Positions 4,580 to 63,574 of a stretch of 64,000 bases of DNA are shown one piece after another; position 1 is the first letter of the stretch; each line of letters begins with the position of its first letter. Both the position numbers and the translations under genes were made by a program. The notes under the pieces were generated by a model that was given only the letters and a program-made list of their open reading frames with translations, made no database searches and was not told the DNA's origin. The DNA is from Acinetobacter gerneri DSM 14967 = CIP 107464 = MTCC 9824 (lineage in GTDB: Bacteria; Pseudomonadota; Gammaproteobacteria; Pseudomonadales; Moraxellaceae): assembly GCF_000368565.1 (NCBI RefSeq), contig NZ_KB849544.1, forward strand, positions 281,064 through 345,063, written 5' to 3'.

Positions 4580-4607
4580 AAAAAAAGGATTCTGATCAGA
4601 ATCCTTC
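4580..4607 (-). terminator. Terminator of nitroreductase 2
   Basis: An 18-base perfect palindrome, GGATTCTGATCAGAATCC, is extended by AA/TT. On the minus strand it is followed by a run of T. It lies just beyond the stop at 4619. The symmetric centre leaves no loop unless the inner pairs open. Confidence 0.75.
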
Positions 4608-12988: not shown

Positions 12989-13099
12989 AGCCCTCTTTCC
13001 ACTTACTTCAACATTGCACTCGCCAAAGGTAGTACATAAAAGACTACCTTAGCTTAGTTAAAATCTATTTACATGTTGCATGCAACATGTAAGAATGCT

Positions 13100-50052: not shown

Positions 50053-50532
50053 TTATTTAGCAACAATTGTCCCTGCTCGCTTATAACCATAAATAGTAAA
50101 AACGTTATTGTTCAATTGAAATGGAATATGTTCACGGATCAATATTTTTTCCAATGCTTCTGTCTCATCTTGAATCTCATTTTCAATCAATTTTCCACGG
50201 AACGTAGATAACATTGCTTTCACTTCGATATATTCAATACAGAAAAATATAGGCATTCCTTCATCAAAGAAACAACTCCAATCTCCGATATAGTTTGGAA
50301 TCCCGATAAGTACTGATTCTTGCTCAGCATTATTAAGTAGTTTTACGGTATAAGCTGGAGGAAAAGCCAATTCATGTATACAGTGGATCAGCTTTAACCA
50401 TTTTGTATCGTTCATCAGGGAATAAAACTGCTGTGTTTGAAGTATTTTATTTATTTTCTGTTTAAATAACGGTATATCAGGATGTCCCACTGCCTGCTTA
50501 TATCGCCGATAATTTTCTTGTAAGTTGTACAT
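50053..50532 (-). CDS. Hypothetical protein (possibly DUF6678-like)
   Basis: 159 residues. NDTKWLKLIHCIHELAFPPA followed by YTVKLL, and IGIPNYIGDWSCFFDEGMPI, then FCIEYIEVKAMLSTFRGKLI, suggest a small soluble alpha/beta protein. The block W-x-L-x4-F-P-P-x-Y...D-W...I-E-x-I-E is reminiscent of DUF6678 proteins, from memory only. No function is known. It is upstream of the Dyp gene on the same strand, not closely coupled. Confidence 0.55.
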   Translation of the reverse strand: MYNLQENYRRYKQAVGHPDIPLFKQKINKILQTQQFYSLMNDTKWLKLIHCIHELAFPPAYTVKLLNNAEQESVLIGIPNYIGDWSCFFDEGMPIFFCIEYIEVKAMLSTFRGKLIENEIQDETEALEKILIREHIPFQLNNNVFTIYGYKRAGTIVAK

Positions 50533-50585
50533 TTAAAGATCCAAAAGCATTTGAATATTCAAATGCTTTTTACTGTACGAATGAG

Positions 50586-51374
50586 TTAAGCACCATAGTA
50601 ACGCTTTAAATAGCTCACAATATCTTTCGATTCAAACAATTGCGCTCCAGTATTTGGATCTTCCAAATACGGTAATTGAATATCTTTTTTAGCTCGTCCC
50701 ATGACTGTAACGACCTGTTCACGTTTTCCACCTTTAATTGGAATATATTGACCCGGTTTTAAACGTAAAACTGCTGGCCCTTGATCTTGCCAACGCTCTT
50801 TTGCAACATTATGAAATACAAAGGGAATTTCAAGTTCAGCCAATACACCACGCACAACACGAGTAAATGGGCTCGCTTCAAAACCCCAAAGTTCCAATAA
50901 CTTTTCAGGTGCTTGACGATTGACTATTTTTTTATCGATCCAAACACCTCGTGCACCATTGATTAGAGTGCCTGCAAATGCTGCAACAGGGATTTTAGGA
51001 TAATGTGCATATTTTTTTGGAGTCGTTCCACTTTTCCCATAATTTTTAAACAAATGATGAATGATCTCTTGTGACTCATAGAGTTGTTCACCAGTATTTT
51101 CATCCACCAAAAAAGGAAACTGTAGTTTTCCACCTTTTTCTTTCACAATTTTACGGTACTTTTCACCACCTTTTGGACATGGATAAACTTCATAATCCAA
51201 ATTTAGCGTGGTTAATACTTCACGCACACGGCGACAAAATGGTGAACCTTCGAACTCATAGAGTTTTAAGGCTTTATTCGGTTGCTTCGGGAATGCTGTG
51301 CCATTTGCACCACGCCCACCTTCTGTCAACGCAGATGCAAGTGCTTGAACAACTTGAATTGAATGATTCACCAT
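50586..51374 (-). CDS. Tandem glutathione S-transferase N-terminal (thioredoxin-fold) protein
   Basis: 262 residues with two GST-N-like domains in one chain. The first is LYEFEGSPFCRRVREVLTTL...YPCPKGG...QLYESQEIIHHL (about residues 35-115). The second is LWGFEASPFTRVVRGVLAEL...LEDPNTGAQLFESKDIVSYL (about residues 170-260). The first has the S-P-F-C-R redox cysteine; the second has Thr in its place. There is no GST C-terminal helical domain, unlike standard GSTs. It may act as a glutathione-linked reductase. It is followed 12 bases upstream on the strand by the rraA-like gene, so the two form an operon. Confidence 0.82.
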   Translation of the reverse strand: MVNHSIQVVQALASALTEGGRGANGTAFPKQPNKALKLYEFEGSPFCRRVREVLTTLNLDYEVYPCPKGGEKYRKIVKEKGGKLQFPFLVDENTGEQLYESQEIIHHLFKNYGKSGTTPKKYAHYPKIPVAAFAGTLINGARGVWIDKKIVNRQAPEKLLELWGFEASPFTRVVRGVLAELEIPFVFHNVAKERWQDQGPAVLRLKPGQYIPIKGGKREQVVTVMGRAKKDIQLPYLEDPNTGAQLFESKDIVSYLKRYYGA

Positions 51375-56193: not shown

Positions 56194-57009
56194 TTAAGCA
56201 GCCATTAGAGGAGGCCTTCCTTTGTTGGCTTGGTGTGGTCTTTCATGATTGTAATGCCATAGCCAATTCGTTGCATAATCTTGTACTTCATCCAAAGTAT
56301 CAAATAAATGTTTGCTTAGCCAACTATAACGTATGGTTCGATTATAGCGTTCAATATACGCATTCTGTTGTGGGTTACCTGGTTGAATATGTTCAATACG
56401 AATACCGTGTTCAGTTGCCCAGCGTACGAATTCATGACTGATAAACTCAGGTCCATTGTCGCATCTAATCACCAAAGGTTTTTCCCGATATTCCAACAAC
56501 TGATTGAGTGCTCGAATAACTCGTATTGCAGGTAGTGAGAACCCTGCTTCAATAACTAAACCTTCGCGGCGGTAATCATCAATCACATTCAATAATCGAA
56601 ATTTGCGACCATCGGAAAGCTGATCGTGCATAAAATCCAGTGACCAGACCTGATTTTCACGGATGGGTTCTTTCAATGGTTCAGGCGCATGTCGTTTTAG
56701 TCTTCTTCTTGGCTTAATACGCAGATTCAGTGCTAACTCACAGTAAATGCGGTAAACCCGCTTGTGATTCCAACAGTGACTCTTAACATGCCGTAAATAT
56801 GAGAAGCATAGACCAAAGCCCCAATCGGAATTTTCCTCAGTGAGGTCTATGAGCTGTTCTGCAATGAGCACATTGTCATCACTGAGTTTAGCTTGATAAC
56901 GGTAGCAGGTTTCACTTATGCCAAATGCAGTGCAAGCCAAACGGATACTAACAGCATGTCGGGCCACTGCATGTTGAGCCATCTGACGTCGACAAGATGG
57001 CTTCACCAC
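56194..57009 (-). CDS. IS3-family transposase OrfB (DDE integrase domain)
   Basis: 271 residues. The catalytic acidic triad is in [22 protein letters not shown] and [12 protein letters not shown] (D, D, E). The N-terminal helical part has [20 protein letters not shown]. In IS3 elements OrfA and OrfB combine, by a -1 frameshift, into the active transposase. It overlaps orfA by seven bases. It appears intact. Confidence 0.93.
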
Positions 57010-57269
57010 TTTTTTGACATCGCTTCCTGAATAATTTCTGCCTTTAACCGCTCTTCAGCATACATTTTTTTCAGTCTGGTATTTTCTGTTTCCAACTCTT
57101 TCAGCCGTGCCATCAAAGATGTATCCATGCCGCCATATTTAGCACGCCATTTATAGAAGGTTGCATTACTCATACCGTGTTCACGACATAGGGCAGCAAC
57201 AGGTGTACCAGACTCCGCTTGCTTTAAGATGGACATGATCTGGCTGTCTGTAAATTTAGATGTTTTCAT
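57003..57269 (-). CDS. IS3-family transposase OrfA (HTH)
   Basis: 88 residues. [20 protein letters not shown] and [19 protein letters not shown] form the helix-turn-helix; a leucine zipper follows ([20 protein letters not shown]). It binds the terminal repeats and dimerises. It is closely similar to OrfA of IS407/IS1236-type elements, from memory. Confidence 0.92.
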
Positions 57270-57340
57270 GCAGAATCTCCTGCTTGTATCTTAAGAGAAA
57301 ATTCTACTTTTAGATCCTATTATTTTTAGGGGGGATTACC

Positions 57341-57812
57341 ATTAGGTTATGAACATAGTCATGGTTCAACTAGATTTGATTTAAAAAAATTAACTTTATT
57401 TTCCTCTACTCCCGATGGTATTACTCGTTCAATGGACAGAGTTGGTAGTAGTACTAATCACTTATTTTTGCACCTGTCATGTTTATTGGCATTTCATTTA
57501 TATTTTCATCAAAACTTATGCCCAGTTCCTTCTTTTTTAGTATTAGATCAACCAAGTCAAGTTTGCTTTCCTGAAATTTATCCTTATGAAACATTGAAAG
57601 ATAATTATGAGCTTTATATAAAGAGTCTTGATATAATTGAAGTTAAAGCTATATTTAAATTTTTATTAAAATATACAAAAGAATATTATAAAGATTTTCA
57701 AATTATTTTATTAGAACACGCTTTCATTGATGAGCCATGGTTTACTGAATTATTAGTTGAAGAACAGTGGATCGATGATAAAGCGTTAATACCATCATCT
57801 TGGATTAATTAA
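57341..57812 (+). pseudogene. 3' remnant of a DUF3732 ATPase gene
   Basis: Reading frame 57342 is open directly from the IS edge: GYEHSHGSTRFDLKKLTLFS, then PDGITRSMDRVGSSTNHLFL, then PVPSFLVLDQPSQVCFP, to a stop at 57812. The D-Q-P-S-Q-V-x-F-P block is the hallmark Walker B/D-loop end of DUF3732 proteins, SMC/RecN-like ATPases. The upstream ATPase part with Walker A is absent, removed at the IS. DUF3732 ATPases occur in conflict systems of the three-component ABC type (knowledge, moderate certainty). The remnant cannot be a working ATPase. Confidence 0.72.
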
Positions 57813-57837
57813 AGTAATTTAAATTATCTATTGACAA

Positions 57838-57863
57838 ATAAATGTAAGTTAACTTACATTTAT
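57838..57863 (+). promoter_or_regulatory. 26-bp perfect palindrome (operator) over a promoter
   Basis: The half-site ATAAATGTAAGTT is followed at once by its exact reverse complement. TTGACA at 57831-57836 is a perfect -35 box, and the palindrome covers the position expected for the -10. It is the only good operator-promoter upstream of the phage-like operon. Any cognate repressor gene is not in view. Confidence 0.75.
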
Positions 57864-57936
57864 CTCGCAGACAATAAAAAAGCACTCTGTCCTTTCAACT
57901 CTAGAGTGCTTAATACAACTAATTGCGAGATAAATT
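57858..57936 (+). promoter_or_regulatory. Nested stem-loop leading to first operon ATG
   Basis: The outer arms ATTTATCTCGCA (57858-57869) and TGCGAGATAAAT (57924-57935) pair perfectly over 12 bp. An inner stem AAGCACTCT (57880-57888) and AGAGTGCTT (57903-57911) lies between. The right outer arm contains the GAGA that would be the ribosome site and ends one base before ATG 57937. This could sequester translation start, or act as a DNA-level element. Confidence 0.55.
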
Positions 57937-57972
57937 ATGAACGCAAAAGCGAATTTTACAATATTGGGGTAA
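57937..57972 (+). CDS. Candidate 11-residue leader peptide
   Basis: ATG 57937 reads MNAKANFTILG and a TAA that overlaps the next ATG as TAATG. The coupling suggests that ribosomes terminating here restart on the following gene. It is too short to test by composition. Confidence 0.4.
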   Translation: MNAKANFTILG

Positions 57973-58367
57973 TGACAACGACTGCTATTGGCATGTCATT
58001 GGGGACTATGGCGTGTACCGACCACACATCAACACGATTACCACAACTCACCTATCCAAACGTTGCACCAAGCGACCATGGTATACAAACCTTAAATATT
58101 ATCACTGACCATACAGGCAAAGCCATCATCAAACTTGATAGCTTTACCCTACTTGTCGGTTTTGACTACTTAGCCCATCCTGACAGCTACGGCGTTGCAG
58201 GCTACGAATATACCGCCGTGGAAATCACCGATATTACCGTTGACCAAACCATAGACATTGACGGTACATATCACAGAGATTTCACCTATCATAACGACAT
58301 ACTCAATATCAAACAGCTATTGGTTGCCTATATAGAGAAAAATCAACTTGTGGAGGTAGCGTCATGA
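57972..58367 (+). CDS. Phage-like hypothetical protein
   Basis: 131 residues from ATG 57972, which overlaps the stop of the leader peptide; an in-frame extension to 57831 crosses the operator and is rejected. The sequence is beta-rich, with no signal peptide: LNIITDHTGKAIIKLDSFTL, then TAVEITDITVDQTIDIDGTY. The family is not recognised. The next gene starts in an ATGA overlap with its stop, so this is the head of a compact operon ending near 60.8 kb. Confidence 0.6.
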   Translation: MTTTAIGMSLGTMACTDHTSTRLPQLTYPNVAPSDHGIQTLNIITDHTGKAIIKLDSFTLLVGFDYLAHPDSYGVAGYEYTAVEITDITVDQTIDIDGTYHRDFTYHNDILNIKQLLVAYIEKNQLVEVAS

Positions 58368-58651
58368 GTGATTATCAGTGTGATATATGCAAAAAATACA
58401 AAGCTGTAGACCTCTCAAAAATAAAAATAGGCGATGACGTAAAATTTACCGTCAAAGTTTCAACCTCTCGCTCAATTCGTCTAACTTCAAAAAGTGGAAC
58501 TGTAGTTGCTCGTGATGAAAACGCACTTATGGTACGTGCACGTAAAAGCATTTATAACATCGATTTATCTGAAGTTACCCCTGAAGGTGCACCAAATAAC
58601 TTAACTTATGCCTTGTTTGGTACTTGTGAATGTGAGGGAGAAAACACATGA
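58364..58651 (+). CDS. Phage-like hypothetical protein with end-to-end cysteines
   Basis: 95 residues. A Cys pair opens the chain (QCDICKKY) and another closes it (GTCECEGEN), which could bind zinc together. The middle, IGDDVKFTVKVSTSRSIRLT then SKSGTVVARDENALMVRARK, looks like a small SH3-type beta barrel. It overlaps both neighbours by ATGA. No function recognised; DNA or RNA contact is a guess. Confidence 0.6.
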   Translation: MSDYQCDICKKYKAVDLSKIKIGDDVKFTVKVSTSRSIRLTSKSGTVVARDENALMVRARKSIYNIDLSEVTPEGAPNNLTYALFGTCECEGENT

Positions 58652-59022
58652 TTTCATCTCCTCCAAAACAGTCCTACTACTGCGAACATATCGCTGATAC
58701 AGCTGAGGGCGAACGCTACCGTTTAGGTACAGAAAATCCAAAGTACTACGTCCTCAAAGCCAAAACTAAAAAGGACTATAACCAAACAGGCATATTGGAA
58801 ACACACGATATCTATCGCGAATATCCTGCGAGTTTATACCATATACCCGATCATAAAGTTGCCAACTGGTTAAATCGCTACCTGACCAAAGCACGCCAGG
58901 CAATGAGAAATAATCGCTATAACCAAATCTTGGGTGATACAGGTTTTTTCAGTCATCTGATTATAAAAAATGGCAAAAACATGGTTGATATGGGCACTAA
59001 TTTGGGGCAAAAAAATGAATAA
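58648..59022 (+). CDS. Phage-like hypothetical protein
   Basis: 124 residues. It starts in ATGA overlap with the previous stop. YYCEHIADTAEGERYRLGTE and KYYVLKAKTKKDYNQTGI form a beta-rich N-terminal half; the C-terminal half is basic and helical (YLTKARQAMRNNRYNQIL). It overlaps the ERF gene start by 8 bases. Family not recognised. Confidence 0.6.
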   Translation: MISSPPKQSYYCEHIADTAEGERYRLGTENPKYYVLKAKTKKDYNQTGILETHDIYREYPASLYHIPDHKVANWLNRYLTKARQAMRNNRYNQILGDTGFFSHLIIKNGKNMVDMGTNLGQKNE

Positions 59023-59704
59023 TCCTGAACATATACAGCTAAATACTTTGCAAAAGGTACAACTTGAACTCAAAGCACCAAAAAGTAAGAAAAATACATT
59101 TGGCAATTATATGTACCGCAATTGCGAAGATATCCTTGAAGCGGTTAAACCATTGTTGCAAAAACATAATGCAACCTTAATCGTGACCGACGATGTTCAA
59201 GAAGTCGGCTCAGTCGTGATCGTTTCAGCAAAAGCCGTATTTACTGATGCAAATGGCAAAGAAACGATTGTTACGGCGCATGCAGGTGTCGATATCCATA
59301 AAAAAGGTATGGATGTAGCACAAACATTCGGTGCATCTAGTTCCTACGCCCGTAAATATGCACTGAATGGCTTGTTCTTAATCGACGATACCAAAGACTA
59401 TGATTCGGATGAATATCAACATCAGATCAACAATTCGAATAAATCGTCGAACTCAAAACAAACTAATCCTCAGCCACTTACGAATAGTAATAAAAACCAA
59501 GTACAAACACAGCAAAAAACTGCAACAAAACCTAAACGCAGTATGAATGAAGCTTATAACGATGCACTCAAAGCAATACCGAATGCACCAGATACAACGA
59601 TTTTAAATGTGGCCATGAAGCACTTTAAAGGAACAACTTTTGAAGCAGGAATACTCAAAGCCTGCCAAGCCAAATGCGACCTTGAAGGTTGGGTACCAGC
59701 TTAA
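59015..59704 (+). CDS. ERF family single-strand annealing protein
   Basis: 229 residues from ATG 59015, inside the end of the previous gene. GNYMYRNCEDILEAVKPLLQ, VVIVSAKAVFTDANGKETI and DVAQTFGASSSYARKYALNG, then LFLIDDTKD, are the ERF pattern; the last block is the conserved G-A-x-x-S-Y-A-R/K-K-Y-A. A low-complexity Asn/Gln/Ser linker (residues about 143-180) leads to a small C-terminal helical part. ERF proteins anneal single strands in phage recombination. No exonuclease partner is clearly recognised beside it. Confidence 0.88.
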   Translation: MNNPEHIQLNTLQKVQLELKAPKSKKNTFGNYMYRNCEDILEAVKPLLQKHNATLIVTDDVQEVGSVVIVSAKAVFTDANGKETIVTAHAGVDIHKKGMDVAQTFGASSSYARKYALNGLFLIDDTKDYDSDEYQHQINNSNKSSNSKQTNPQPLTNSNKNQVQTQQKTATKPKRSMNEAYNDALKAIPNAPDTTILNVAMKHFKGTTFEAGILKACQAKCDLEGWVPA

Positions 59705-59734
59705 AACATTTTTTAATTTTATTTGGGGAAATAA

Positions 59735-60579
59735 ATGAACGTATTAACACAAAAAGAAGCAAAACTCGCTTGGGCAAATAACGAAGCATTATTGATCAAC
59801 AATATTGCTGAAAACGGCTGGGAAGAATTCTTTCCAGCAAATTGGGGATGTGATGTATTTAATACCTTCCAGTTTGAGATCAAACCACGCATTGTCCTGA
59901 TTGGCGATATCGAAGTACCCGAGAACCAATCAAAGAACCTTTAAGCAAAGGACAAGCATATTTTGTGCCTTCGCTACTCACAGACAAACTGGCCAACCAA
60001 CTTAAATGGAAAAACTCAGCCACAGACAAAACTTTGTTAGAACGTGGATTGGTTCATTTAAACGAAGATGATGCCATCTGCCATGCCCAAGCACACATTA
60101 TTGTAAGTGGAGGTGCTATACAACGTAATGACAATATAGCCTCGATAGATAAAATTGTACTATTTAAAGATCCAATCACTCAAAATGAAACAATTACAGA
60201 CGAGTTGCAAACTGCAAGTGCTGAACAAGTAACTGAATTAAGGCAAGACCAACAAGAACTATTGGATGAGCTCTTACCACGAGTAGATAGTGCCCAAACA
60301 CCAAATGAAGCCACTGCACTTTCTGGCTATACCACGTCATGGACTGAGCAACAACGCAAACCACTTCTTGATAAAATTCATAAACGATTAGTCGAATTAA
60401 ATCCTATCAGTGCTATTCCACCAAAAGAAGCGCCTTCATTAATGGTCAGGATCGAAAATGCACCAGACTTAGTGACATTGTCAGAATTAGAAATTGAAGT
60501 GAAAGGCCGCCATCCAGATATACAGCCAAAATTGATGGGCTATGTTAAAAAGCGTCGTTATGAATTAGATAATGCATAA
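59735..60579 (+). pseudogene. Phage-like gene broken by a -1 frameshift
   Basis: Two frames make one protein. The first reads from ATG 59735 to IVLIGDIEV and then runs into a stop at 59942. The second is open from about 59917 and reads PIKEPLSKGQAYFVPSLLT on to 60579. The junction at GTACCCGAG (59915-59923) lacks one base, and repair would give about 281 residues. No slippery heptamer is present, so mutation or sequencing error is likelier than recoding. The family is not recognised; the C-terminal half is rich in Gln and Glu and helical. Confidence 0.65.
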
Positions 60580-60607
60580 CTGGAACAAGTTATGCTAGGG
60601 GAAAATA

Positions 60608-60715
60608 ATGCAATGGTTTTTATTGGGGTTTGAATGTTCCTTTGCGATATGCAGGACAATTTATATATTTTATAAAATGTGGGGATGGAAATTACTAAAT
60701 GTTGGGAGAAGATGA
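60608..60715 (+). CDS. Candidate 35-residue small protein
   Basis: ATG 60608, with GGGGAAAA before it, reads MQWFLLGFECSFAICRTIYI, then FYKMWGWKLLNVGRR. It is hydrophobic, with a basic end. Its stop overlaps a further ATG as ATGA (60712), giving a 10-residue frame that in turn overlaps ATG 60741. The overlap chain continues the style of the upstream operon. Confidence 0.4.
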   Translation: MQWFLLGFECSFAICRTIYIFYKMWGWKLLNVGRR

Positions 60716-60740
60716 TCGAAGCATCACAGGATGCCATCTC

Positions 60741-60854
60741 ATGAATGATTATTTATTTAAATGTTATTGTAAAAATAAGCATCTTGAAAGTGAGAGAGTT
60801 AGAAAACCTGGGAAGCGTTACGGTCTAAATTACCATGTATTAGTTCCGACTTGA
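60741..60854 (+). pseudogene. Small gene truncated by the IS481 element
   Basis: ATG 60741 reads MNDYLFKCYCKNKHLESERV, then RKPGKRYGLNYHVLVPT and a TGA that consists of the first three bases of the IS end (TGATCTGACA). The frame is therefore cut at residue 37. No continuation is found right of the IS at 62015. Two Cys near the N-terminus (CYCKNKH) hint at a metal site. Confidence 0.5.
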
Positions 60855-62014
60855 TCTGACACAGGTCTTGAAAAAGAGAAAGTTACCCGTTTTGATAAAG
60901 GTGTCGAATCTAAACAAAACAAAGGTAACTTTCTATGATGCATACTAGCAATCAAATCATTAAACACAAAGTGGGCTTACTCAATTTAGCTGAAGAACTT
61001 CAAAATGTTTCCAGAGCTTGTAAAGTGATGGGCGTATCTAGAGATACATTCTATCGCTATCAAGAACTCACCGAATCAGGTGATATGGATGCATTGATCA
61101 ATAAATCCAAACGTGTACCTAATTTAAAAAATCGAGTTGATGATCATATCGAAAAAGCCGTTATTGATTATGCCATTCAATACCCTGCATACGGACAACA
61201 CAGAACAAGTAATGAACTACGTAAACAAGGTGTTTTTGTATCAGGCAGTGGAGTTCGATCTATTTGGCTTCGCCATGATCTAGAGAACTTTAAAAAGCGA
61301 CTCAAGGCATTAGCAGCTAAAGTTGCTCAAGAAGGTATTCAGCTGAATGATCAGCAAATAGCTGCATTGGAGCGTAAACATGAAGATGATATTGCATGTG
61401 GTGAAATTGAAACAGCTCATCCAGGCTATTTAGGTTCACAAGACACTTTCTATGTCGGTAATTTAAAGGGCGTGGGGCGTATCTACCAACAGACATTTAT
61501 TGATACTTATAGCAAGATCGTACACTGCAAACTTTACACAACAAAGACACCAATTACTTGCGCTGATTTATTAAATGATCGTGTCCTGCCTTTTTATCAG
61601 TCACAAGGTTTACCAATGCTTCGAATTCTGACAGATAGAGGAACGGAATATTGCGGAAAGATAGAACATCATGATTATGAATTATATTTAGCAGTCAATG
61701 ATATAGACCATACAAAGACGAAAGCTGCATCCCCACAAACCAATGGTATATGTGAACGCTTCCATAAAACAATTTTACAGGAGTTTTATCAAATCACCTT
61801 CAGGAAGAAACTTTATAGTTCGCTGGAAGATTTACAAATAGACCTAGACGAATGGTTAAAGTTTTATAATACTGAACGAACCCATCAGGGCAAAATGTGC
61901 AATGGTCGAACACCATTTGAAACATTGCTTGATGGAAAACGAATTTGGGCTGAGAAGAATTTAGCTCAAATTTAAACTGACAGTCACTATTAAAAATGGG
62001 TAACTGTCAGATCA
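60852..62014 (+). mobile_element. IS481-family insertion sequence
   Basis: Terminal repeats TGATCTGACA (60852-60861) and TGTCAGATCA (62005-62014), extended to GACYTGATCTGACA if flanks are included. A second internal match AGTTACCCGTTTT/AGTTACCCATTTT lies just inside at different spacing. One full transposase gene. No target duplication recognised. Confidence 0.82.
60935..61975 (+). CDS. IS481-family transposase
   Basis: 346 residues. The N-terminal HTH is ACKVMGVSRDTFYRYQELTE. The DDE domain has TFIDTYSKIVHCKLY, RILTDRGTEYCGKI and QTNGICERFHKTILQEF (D, D, E). WLKFYNTERTHQGKMCNGRT closes the domain, as in IS481 and IS30-related enzymes. It appears intact. The start may be either of two adjacent ATG codons. 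Confidence 0.93.
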   Translation: MMHTSNQIIKHKVGLLNLAEELQNVSRACKVMGVSRDTFYRYQELTESGDMDALINKSKRVPNLKNRVDDHIEKAVIDYAIQYPAYGQHRTSNELRKQGVFVSGSGVRSIWLRHDLENFKKRLKALAAKVAQEGIQLNDQQIAALERKHEDDIACGEIETAHPGYLGSQDTFYVGNLKGVGRIYQQTFIDTYSKIVHCKLYTTKTPITCADLLNDRVLPFYQSQGLPMLRILTDRGTEYCGKIEHHDYELYLAVNDIDHTKTKAASPQTNGICERFHKTILQEFYQITFRKKLYSSLEDLQIDLDEWLKFYNTERTHQGKMCNGRTPFETLLDGKRIWAEKNLAQI

Positions 62015-62036
62015 GGTCTGAGCTAGTACAATTACC

Positions 62037-62099
62037 ATGACTTGGTTTGGTCTCGTTGTGCTTGTGCTTCTTATTATCAGATCAAACAAATCCCATTAA
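62037..62099 (+). CDS. Candidate 20-residue hydrophobic peptide
   Basis: ATG 62037 reads MTWFGLVVLVLLIIRSNKSH. One short hydrophobic helix with a basic tail. It sits between the IS481 end and the AlpA-like gene, 16 bases before the latter. Ribosome site is not obvious. It may be a remnant. Confidence 0.3.
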   Translation: MTWFGLVVLVLLIIRSNKSH

Positions 62100-62115
62100 T
62101 TTAGGAGAATAATTT

Positions 62116-62391
62116 ATGAATACTTTAACTAATTCAAACCAATCAAAATTATACATATGCACATCTGAACTTTTAAAAAGATACGGAATTACAAAATGTA
62201 CTTTGATCAATTGGCGTAATAATCGAGATTTCCCCCAACCTATTGTCAAGGCACATGGTAGAAGCAATAGCCGTTACGGTGTTAAAGCGGTAGCAACTTG
62301 GGAAGAAAACAATGGAATGTTTGATGCCCTCTCCATAGACCCCTTGCTCCCTACTAACTCGCGATTTTCAATAATTGCACATAGCTTATAG
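62116..62391 (+). CDS. AlpA-like phage regulator/excisionase-type HTH protein
   Basis: 91 residues, preceded by AGGAGAATAATTT. ELLKRYGITKCTLINWRNNR and DFPQPIVKAHGRSNSRYGV, then KAVATWEENN, match the AlpA/MerR-like winged HTH that regulates integrase genes. The tail after residue 65 overlaps the convergent integrase 3' end by 118 bases, an unusual amount. It probably directed excision or transcription of the island. Confidence 0.75.
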   Translation: MNTLTNSNQSKLYICTSELLKRYGITKCTLINWRNNRDFPQPIVKAHGRSNSRYGVKAVATWEENNGMFDALSIDPLLPTNSRFSIIAHSL

Positions 62392-63574
62392 AACCATTTA
62401 CTATAAGCTTGTGCTTGAGGCTCTAAATACTCATGTAAATCATAAGTACCCCAAATTTGAGGTAAAGCATGTCCAAGCATTATTTCGCAAATATGAGGTG
62501 GGGCAATACCTGAAATGTGTGTACGCATGGTTCTTCTAAGGTCATGTATGGTCCAATGCTCAATTTCATGCCCGTATGCTTTTTTTATATTTCGGTTGAT
62601 ATATTGAGGTATTGAAATCTGAAACCCTTTATTTACAACATCATATCTTTGACCATAGCTCGTCGCAAATGCAAATTCACATTCTTCTGGTGTCAATGCA
62701 AAAACACTTTTTAAGTATGGGATAATTTCAAGAATAATAGGTCGCACAATAGCTTTATTCTTTTTCTTACCTGTTTTATGGTTATCAGCTGGAATGGTCC
62801 AAATCCCTTCATCAAAATCAAAGTCAGATTTTTTCGCTAAACGAAGTTCACTTTCACGACAACCAAAAAATAATAATAGTAAAATAATCGCTTTATTTTT
62901 GGCTGGTGTATTTACTGAATTTTGAGAAGCGTTAACTACCCGGTATATTTCCAGCTCACTTAAAAATCGATCGCACACCACTTTCTTTACGTTTAAGTCT
63001 GCTGACCTTAAATGCTCAAGAGTTTGGTACTTTAGCATTCCATGCCCCCCCCCAGCGCATAATCATACGCAGATTGCCTAATATCTTTACTGCAACTGTA
63101 TTTGCCTTTTCTGCAATATCAAAAAGTATACTCGACCATTCTTGTAACGTAATCTCATCGCAAATACGTTTACCACATTTGGGATACAAATGAAGTTCGA
63201 AAGCTCTCATGTCATCAGGTTGTGCTACTTTATCTTTGGCAACTTTTAAAAACCATACTTTACTTATTTCTTTTACAGTAGGTTGACTAATATAATCAGT
63301 AGCACGCTTAAATTTTAATTGTTGTGGATCCCTACCCTGATCTAAGTCTGACTTATAATCTAGCACGATTGCTCGTGCTTCTTTTAAAGATGTAAATGGG
63401 TATGTACCAATGTCAATTCATTTTCCTTGACCATTGAATCGATAACGGTATTGAAATACTATCTTCCCCGTTAGGTGAAATACGTACTGAAAGTGAATCT
63501 TTGTCATTAATGACTTCAATCTTATCTCTCGGCTTTCCATTAATTGATTTAAGCCATGAATCACTTAATGCCAT
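62274..63574 (-). pseudogene. Tyrosine integrase with three inactivating lesions
   Basis: From ATG 63574 the chain MALSDSWLKSINGKPRDKIE is a DUF4102-type integrase start. Lesion 1: an extra base in the CCCC run at 63466-63469 shifts the frame, which otherwise continues GKIVFQYRYRFNGQGK. Lesion 2: TGA at 63420-63418 where CGA (Arg) is expected, before IDIGTYPFTSLKEARAI. Lesion 3: nine C at 63045-63053, where eight would join NLRMIMRWGG to HGMLKYQTLEHL. The catalytic residues are present in the C-terminal part: GCRESEL (R), HDLRRTMR (H-x-x-R), GHALP and YDLHEYL (Y). The family integrates islands site-specifically. Confidence 0.88.

Follow-up and report, generated by a model that had tools for sequence, protein, structure and literature searches.

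In the OL/PL arrangement of phage lambda, a repressor operator is set into an early promoter, and phage factors of the antitermination type are known in lambda N and Q and in HK022 put. In IS10, the promoters pIN and pOUT combine an antisense RNA, RNA-OUT, with fold-back inhibition of read-through transcripts. The hairpins of the T4 genes e and soc hide the ribosome site in read-through RNA, while RNA begun inside the hairpin does not. Phage antisense RNAs directed against an early or antirepressor leader include the sar RNA of P22 and the C4 RNA of P1 and P7, and type I toxin-antitoxin loci join a small membrane protein and a hidden ribosome site to an antisense RNA of about 50-60 nt. IS200 tnpA is described as having a structured 5' leader together with the antisense RNA art200, with several independent mechanisms acting against translation (PMC12594629). 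C4-like sRNAs of Acinetobacter have also been reported (PMC5320573).

Here we describe a regulatory unit in a 64,000-nucleotide stretch of the genome of Acinetobacter gerneri DSM 14967, hereafter the window. We favor, with moderate confidence, the reading that this unit is the early promoter of an Acinetobacter siphophage-type prophage, placed much as lambda OL/PL is and held by two or three independent locks. Operator identity, conserved anatomy, antisense promoter signatures and genus-wide spread are shown here by sequence comparison. The features of the unit in the window are as follows.

57814-57827, no strand: putative degenerate upstream copy of the operator (GTAATTTAAATTAT), proposed for the window from its sequence.
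57831-57836, plus strand: -35 box TTGACA of the early, PL-like promoter (sequence and comparison of units).
57838-57863, no strand: 26-bp perfect palindrome; predicted repressor operator (sequence and comparison of units).
57855-57860, plus strand: -10 box TACATT, within the right arm of the palindrome (sequence).
57867, plus strand: expected transcription start, from the -10 spacing.
57858-57869, plus strand: left arm of the 12-bp outer inverted repeat; probable promoter discriminator and anti-ribosome-site arm (sequence and pairing comparison).
57924-57935, plus strand: right arm of the outer repeat, with the ribosome site GAGATA (57927-57932) inside it and a single base between its end and the ATG at 57937 (sequence).
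57880-57911, no strand: inner hairpin with 9-bp arms at 57880-57888 and 57903-57911 (sequence and folding).
57876-57881, minus strand: A6 tract, the apparent U-tract of a terminator-like minus-strand hairpin (sequence and comparison of units).
57934-57939, minus strand: -10 box CATAAT of the predicted antisense promoter, over the start codon (comparison of units).
57956-57961, minus strand: -35 box TTGTAA of the predicted antisense promoter, with a spacer of 16 in the window and mostly 17-18 in relatives.
57872-57927, minus strand: predicted antisense RNA, about 50-60 nt long, as expected from the antisense promoter and minus-strand terminator.
57937-58367, plus strand: first gene, PHROG 1984 (annotated as of unknown function), frameshifted.
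58364-60579, plus strand: rest of the early operon, with PHROG 3728, PHROG 16883, the ERF annealing protein (58970-59704) and a PHROG 2438 gene split in two.

A first-pass annotation of the same DNA had placed the -35 box, the palindrome, both stems, the ribosome site and an 11-codon frame (57937-57972, whose stop overlaps the ATG at 57971 as TAATG), and all of these are present where it put them. Across 60 Markov-1 resamplings of the window, chance gave no perfect palindrome longer than 22 bp. Since the window contains four perfect palindromes of at least 22 bp (28, 26, 24 and 22 bp), size alone does not set the 26-bp palindrome apart. The 28-bp palindrome (50543-50570) lies between the minus-strand ORFs 50053-50532 and 50586-51374 and is perhaps a terminator; those of 24 and 22 bp are found at 13069-13092 and 4585-4606. 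The folding energy of the leader is -22.9 kcal/mol (z -2.62), with 2 of 200 shuffles as good. We regard the layout, which is kept in 110 homologous units, as stronger support than either the palindrome size or this folding figure.

Phage records with a BLAST match to the window's unit comprised 25 Acinetobacter records among 189 (E up to 10). When the unit of phage A1626.2 served as the query, there were 38 matching records, all from Acinetobacter, and 20 of them covered at least 80% of the query. Matches were detected in 20 of 149 genomes of the genus, the window's genome included; in three of the 20 (L026-L028) they proved to be terminator-like stretches lacking the unit and were dropped. 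L002 and L032 duplicated places already counted, and L004-L008, short and weak matches from a separate search, were kept outside the comparison. A covariance model built from 30 units matched 108 of 175 Acinetobacter species genomes (E up to 0.001, its own included), with genome units seen by eye in 79 genomes. The same model matched 5 of 194 genomes of the order, again including its own, and by eye the four others (L090-L093), from outside the genus, looked like plain terminators. The 110 distinct units compared consist of 18 genome loci, 11 phage records, the window and 80 further genome units, these last being a selection from the upper part of the covariance-model list rather than all of the matches there. 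Rfam, C4 included, gave 0 matches in window positions 57700-58100 at E up to 1, and at gathering scores it returned one tRNA only, and no C4 match, across six loci. No published description of the unit was present among the matches listed in the open-access literature. The window's genome carries a second unit (L050; G000:C26:111464-111574, minus strand), which has its own repressor upstream and a weakly symmetric operator that differs from the window's.

Comparison of the units makes it very probable that the prophage's own repressor docks at the palindrome, inside the early promoter. The best-scoring -35 ahead of the leader starts with TTGA in 87 of the 110 units and with TTGC in 16, and the spacer is 17 in 77 units, 16 in 26 and 18 in 7. 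The best dyad centre falls 10-11 nt before the base following the -10 in 87/110 units, and dyad strength averages 5.03 of 9 pairs at -10.5 versus a median of 2.97 across all centres. Conservation of the palindrome had been proposed as a check, and the outcome is divided: its letters vary widely from phage to phage across the 110 units, and what is conserved is its place, its symmetry and its match to the cognate repressor region. A nearby repressor gene had likewise been proposed as something to look for. Of 109 units, 107 stand downstream of a gene for a CI/S24-type repressor homolog, without exception on the same strand and at a median distance of 1.9 kb; no such gene lies upstream in the window. 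The two units lacking a homolog are L033, for which 0.6 kb of DNA was available, and L114, with 6.6 kb available.

Each site resembles the region upstream of its own repressor gene (14.49 of 16 letters) more closely than those of other clusters (12.40; 43 clusters), and 0 of 20,000 permutations scored as high (permutation p 5e-5, sd 0.13); analysis of 16 clusters gave the same outcome. With the 16-letter word, only 13 of the 43 clusters had their own region in first place (median rank 3), as several clusters have similar sites. By eye, phage A1626.2 (L009) carries AATAAGATTTCTTA twice in the unit and once between the repressor and a divergent gene, and relatives such as L009, L013 and L017 have a second similar site at the place of the 57814-57827 copy. 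As in lambda-type OL/PL, an operator for the phage's own repressor thus appears to lie inside the promoter, and the match to the cognate repressor region supports the DNA-level role that had been raised for the palindrome. It is extremely unlikely that the palindrome is instead a host UmuDAb/SOS box, a reading suggested by the prophage setting, where damage control is common. The operator letters track the phage's own repressor instead, and, judged by eye, the window sequence does not conform to the UmuDAb box, in which TTGA and TCAA arms flank a GTnAC core (PMC11332147).

Since the right arm of the palindrome holds the -10, the expected start (about 57867) falls past the palindrome, within the outer stem's left arm. 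A start that splits the palindrome had been considered as a possibility earlier; by the -10 spacing, it would be the outer-stem arm that is split instead. We take this left arm to be the promoter's discriminator, with the promoter's own transcripts presumably starting just past it and leaving the ribosome site open. With a start at the base after ATCTC (57867), own RNA would keep only 3 of the 12 outer pairs, and read-through RNA from the repressor operon would keep all 12. The ribosome site is predicted to be more open in own RNA (0.56) than in read-through RNA (0.14), with this order in 29 of 30 units (the exception is L050, and differences are small in L051 and L052); because removal of the arm frees the site by construction, this comparison tests only where the start falls.

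The pairing of the arm with the ribosome site was compared with that of arms swapped between units. Across 99 distinct pairs the energies were -6.82 kcal/mol for own arms and -5.82 kcal/mol for swapped arms (p 1e-4), with p 0.01 for a control using codons 2-6, and a second pairing score gave 12.55 for own versus 11.34 for swapped arms (sd 0.17). Alternative paired arm types were recognized by eye: TTCACC/GGTGAA in L048 and L134, ATCTCAC/GTGAGGT in L042 and ACCTCGTA/TACGAGGT in L049. L051 and L052 combine a left arm of one type with a ribosome site of another, and L050, L140, L150, L139, L155, L124, L052 and L144 pair poorly. Within the best alignments, Watson-Crick pairs occupy 89 of 97 cases at -3 and likewise at -2, and 50 of 91 at the start base; pairing is thus maintained ahead of the expected start and loosened at that base. 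We consider the pairing a supported pattern, through which the arm may act as RNA. A start within the arm that hides the ribosome site, as in fold-back systems, would fit the -10 spacing in the units.

These data also bear on a simpler account, a plain lambda-like OL/PL in which control rests with the repressor alone, the hairpin serves as an ordinary terminator against antisense or stray transcription, and the outer repeat is a shared promoter discriminator. ATCTC-like discriminators are common to plus and minus promoters, and the wobble counts do not favor a plus-strand RNA: among 102 distinct arm pairs, A.C mismatches (111) outnumber G.U pairs (73). By position, G.U leads from -9 to -2 (40 vs 28 A.C) and A.C leads at -1 (14 vs 1 G.U), these positional counts coming from alignments that were chosen for pairing. 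Against the simpler account stand the unit-by-unit agreement of the arm with the ribosome site and the occurrence of several other paired types. The combination of repression with translational gating, which the first-pass annotation had entertained, appears to be the best-fitting reading.

The same annotation did not include a second promoter and a terminator on the opposite strand. Sequence signatures suggest a facing sigma70-type promoter over the first codons, which would produce an antisense RNA of about 50-60 nt. A minus-strand -10 lies over the start codon in 109 of 110 units (CATAAT in 59, CATACT in 50). At the minus-strand -35, TTGA is found 16-18 nt away in 89/110 units and TTG in 107/110, compared with backgrounds of 4.6% and 12.4%, respectively (395 starts). 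Counted from the A of the ATG, the corresponding plus-strand TCAA has its peaks at offsets 22 (40%) and 23 (41%), all other offsets from 3 to 44 being at or below 8%. It is read in one frame as Ser-Gln, Asn-Gln or Gly-Gln in 45 units and in another frame as Phe-Asn, Ile-Asn, Val-Lys, Phe-Lys or Ile-Lys in 44, so protein homology alone is no explanation. When units were grouped by N-terminus, the first member had the antisense -35 in 17 of 26 groups; a synonymous-codon null for this -35 in 15 groups gave a weak result (Fisher p 0.019), and the first codons may be homologous across families. The window's own antisense promoter is poor (TTGTAA, spacer 16).

The inner hairpin resembles a terminator more on the minus strand, as judged from an excess on its A side. 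When the hairpin was anchored on the longest A-run, left-hand A exceeded right-hand T in 110/110 units (means of 6.61 vs 3.35 of 8), an asymmetry partly built in by that anchoring; unanchored, the A side was richer in 89 of 110, equal in 10 and poorer in 11 (means of 4.61 vs 2.77 of 8). Eight of the 110 inner stems lack an unbroken 5-bp run. The distance from the antisense start to the A-tract is 45-50 nt in 99/110 units, from which the predicted length of about 50-60 nt follows, and the predicted RNA would be complementary to the leader up to the ribosome site. The loop of the L047 hairpin is the exact reverse complement of the loop in L041, L097 and L124, apparently an inversion between the stem arms.

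The likeness of the inner hairpin and its A-tract to the host terminators in L026-L028 is a further point for the plain OL/PL account. A terminator alone, however, leaves the conservation of the minus-strand -35 and -10 at a fixed spacing unexplained, and we consider this account rather unlikely. Still less probable is an attenuator or antiterminator site, at which the inner hairpin would stop the plus transcript unless a phage factor intervened. A hairpin is indeed predicted between the expected start and the ATG in 110/110 units, yet the plus-strand T-tract is short by the means given above and, anchored or unanchored, is exceeded by the A side.

Weiss (2016) lists ABUWs013 and ABUWs021, two 62-nt sRNAs that are 89% identical and almost confined to strain AB5075 (PMC5320573). 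When antisense RNAs were predicted for 18 units (the window, 11 phage records and six genome loci), their folds resembled the published description of these two sRNAs, against which they were compared, only in part.

The 11-codon frame had been read as a leader peptide coupled by TAATG to the first real gene, and comparison with relatives points elsewhere. The counterpart of the ATG at 57937 opens an uninterrupted first gene of 146 aa in the close relative L012/L033, and likewise opens the full first gene in L009 and L011. The profile of PHROG 1984 (147 aa) aligns with the downstream frame of the window beginning at profile position 14, and after 57937-57972 the gene continues in the frame of the ATG at 57971. 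By this comparison the 11-codon frame is the first gene's own beginning, truncated by a single-base frameshift of which the apparent TAATG coupling is a by-product. A leader peptide with translational coupling is accordingly very improbable, since the frame and its overlap, the features that spoke for it, exist only through the frameshift in the window. A leader-peptide attenuator was also considered and rejected, as the short frame belongs to the frameshifted first gene and is not a conserved coding frame ahead of it.

Of nine other first-gene products, three matched PHROG 29933 (one weakly), one PHROG 1984 and one, weakly, PHROG 6641; the other four had no PHROG match. No assigned early-phage function was found for the nine products scanned, and a Pfam search of eight gave none above cut-off. 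A membrane-like stretch is present in 104 of 110 first-gene products, versus 19% of 961 minus-strand ORFs of 60-200 aa, a background set in which many are probably not genes. The six products without one are those of L033, the window, L101 (cut by a contig end), L042, L169 and L174. All three units that lack TTG at the antisense -35 (L042, L169 and L174) are among these six. The first genes of L042 and L169 read like what we take to be pentapeptide-repeat proteins, and in both units this goes with the missing antisense -35. Product lengths are 140-159 aa in 51/110 units and 60-99 aa in 48/110.

These observations raise the possibility of a type I toxin-antitoxin unit at the operon head, in which the first gene would encode a small membrane toxin and the antisense RNA would be the antitoxin. 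The frequency of membrane-like stretches, their absence in the three units without antisense TTG and the 48 products of 60-99 aa all fit such a unit. The 51 products of 140-159 aa, in contrast, exceed what we take to be the usual size of type I toxins, the promoter appears to be under repressor control, and toxicity is putative; we therefore view this alternative as doubtful.

The window's own copy is apparently a worn, orphaned relic, derepressed or dead, as its repressor is gone, its first gene is frameshifted and its antisense spacer is one base shorter. Positions 56194-63574 hold a decayed prophage and its neighbors. Upstream, where the repressor operon would be expected, lie IS3-like frames (56194-57269, by eye) beside a DUF3732 gene fragment (57432-57812). 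The early operon (57937-60579), whose ERF annealing protein and PHROG matches bear out the phage-type operon recognized at first pass, is followed by a transposase-like gene (60935-61975), and the integrase frame is broken, with PHROG 1 matching only positions 268-453 of 611 in the largest piece. The motif GTAAGN4CTTAC has no other occurrence in the window's genome. A search of that genome, run without a positive control, found no repressor like that of L034, a unit with the same core. The genome encodes three S24 proteins at other places, including one upstream of the second unit, L050. As far as searched, the window's copy is an orphan within this genome.

In the reading that we prefer, a dimeric CI/S24-type repressor bound to the palindrome, over the -10 and the spacer, would silence the promoter in the lysogen at the DNA level. 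Transcripts of the repressor operon, which is located upstream in the same orientation, can continue into the early operon. Such read-through RNA would carry the outer left arm along, pair it with the ribosome site and fold shut, and the promoter's own transcripts, begun just past the pairing bases, would keep the ribosome site open and be translated. As a third lock, the facing promoter in the first codons would read into the inner hairpin, its minus-strand terminator, and the short antisense RNA, covering the leader up to the ribosome site, should block translation. The start sites, the existence of the antisense RNA and the effect of each lock are what we infer from the anatomy of the units.

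Seven letter-identical leaders, taken from the A-tract to the ribosome site, are shared by two or more units. Six of the seven occur with two or more repressor groups, one of these leaders with four, and the seventh is joined to two different operators, one member having no assigned repressor group. Given that identical leaders are joined to different operators and repressors, an antisense RNA made constantly by the lysogen would also shut down the early operon of an infecting phage that its repressor does not recognize. Since the first target is usually a membrane-like protein, immunity and a toxin-antitoxin-like unit may be fused. We put forward only tentatively, as an unlikely idea, that the antisense RNA provides a second, repressor-independent immunity, perhaps fused with a type I toxin-antitoxin-like unit in one genus-wide RNA element. 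More generally, the unit would add a widespread regulatory element without an Rfam match to lysogeny control in a clinically important genus. It shows that phages can exchange the operator and retain the same RNA leader, and it makes RNA-based immunity across repressor classes directly testable in ordinary lysogens.

The unit resembles lambda OL/PL in that an early promoter containing the predicted operator precedes the early operon and follows a repressor gene of the same strand. Among 11 annotated phage regions, an integrase lies downstream of the unit on the same strand in 4 and on the other strand in 2, and none is shown in 5, one of which ends near the unit; two of the regions with a same-strand integrase carry a RecA-like annotation, and the window carries ERF. 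Unlike lambda OL/PL, the unit has a leader that would hide the ribosome site and be split by the expected start, and a predicted antisense promoter nested within it. As in IS10, its own start would fall inside the arm so that only read-through RNA would fold shut, and a short predicted antisense RNA would lie over the translation start. In contrast to IS10, the setting is a prophage early operon, a phage repressor is placed on top and the antisense RNA would end at the leader hairpin; we claim no homology. A structured leader plus a predicted antisense RNA also recalls IS200 tnpA/art200, which differs in being a transposase gene without a phage repressor operator. The proposed read-through lock is like that of T4 e and soc, which differ in being late promoters of a lytic phage with no antisense RNA. 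With P22 sar and P1/P7 C4 the unit would share a phage antisense RNA to an early leader, although, unlike C4, it has no Rfam C4 match in the stretches scanned. Finally, type I toxin-antitoxin loci are similar in their membrane-like product, hideable ribosome site and antisense RNA of the size predicted here, whereas the unit described here forms the repressor-controlled head of a long operon, with 140-159 aa products in 51 of 110 units.
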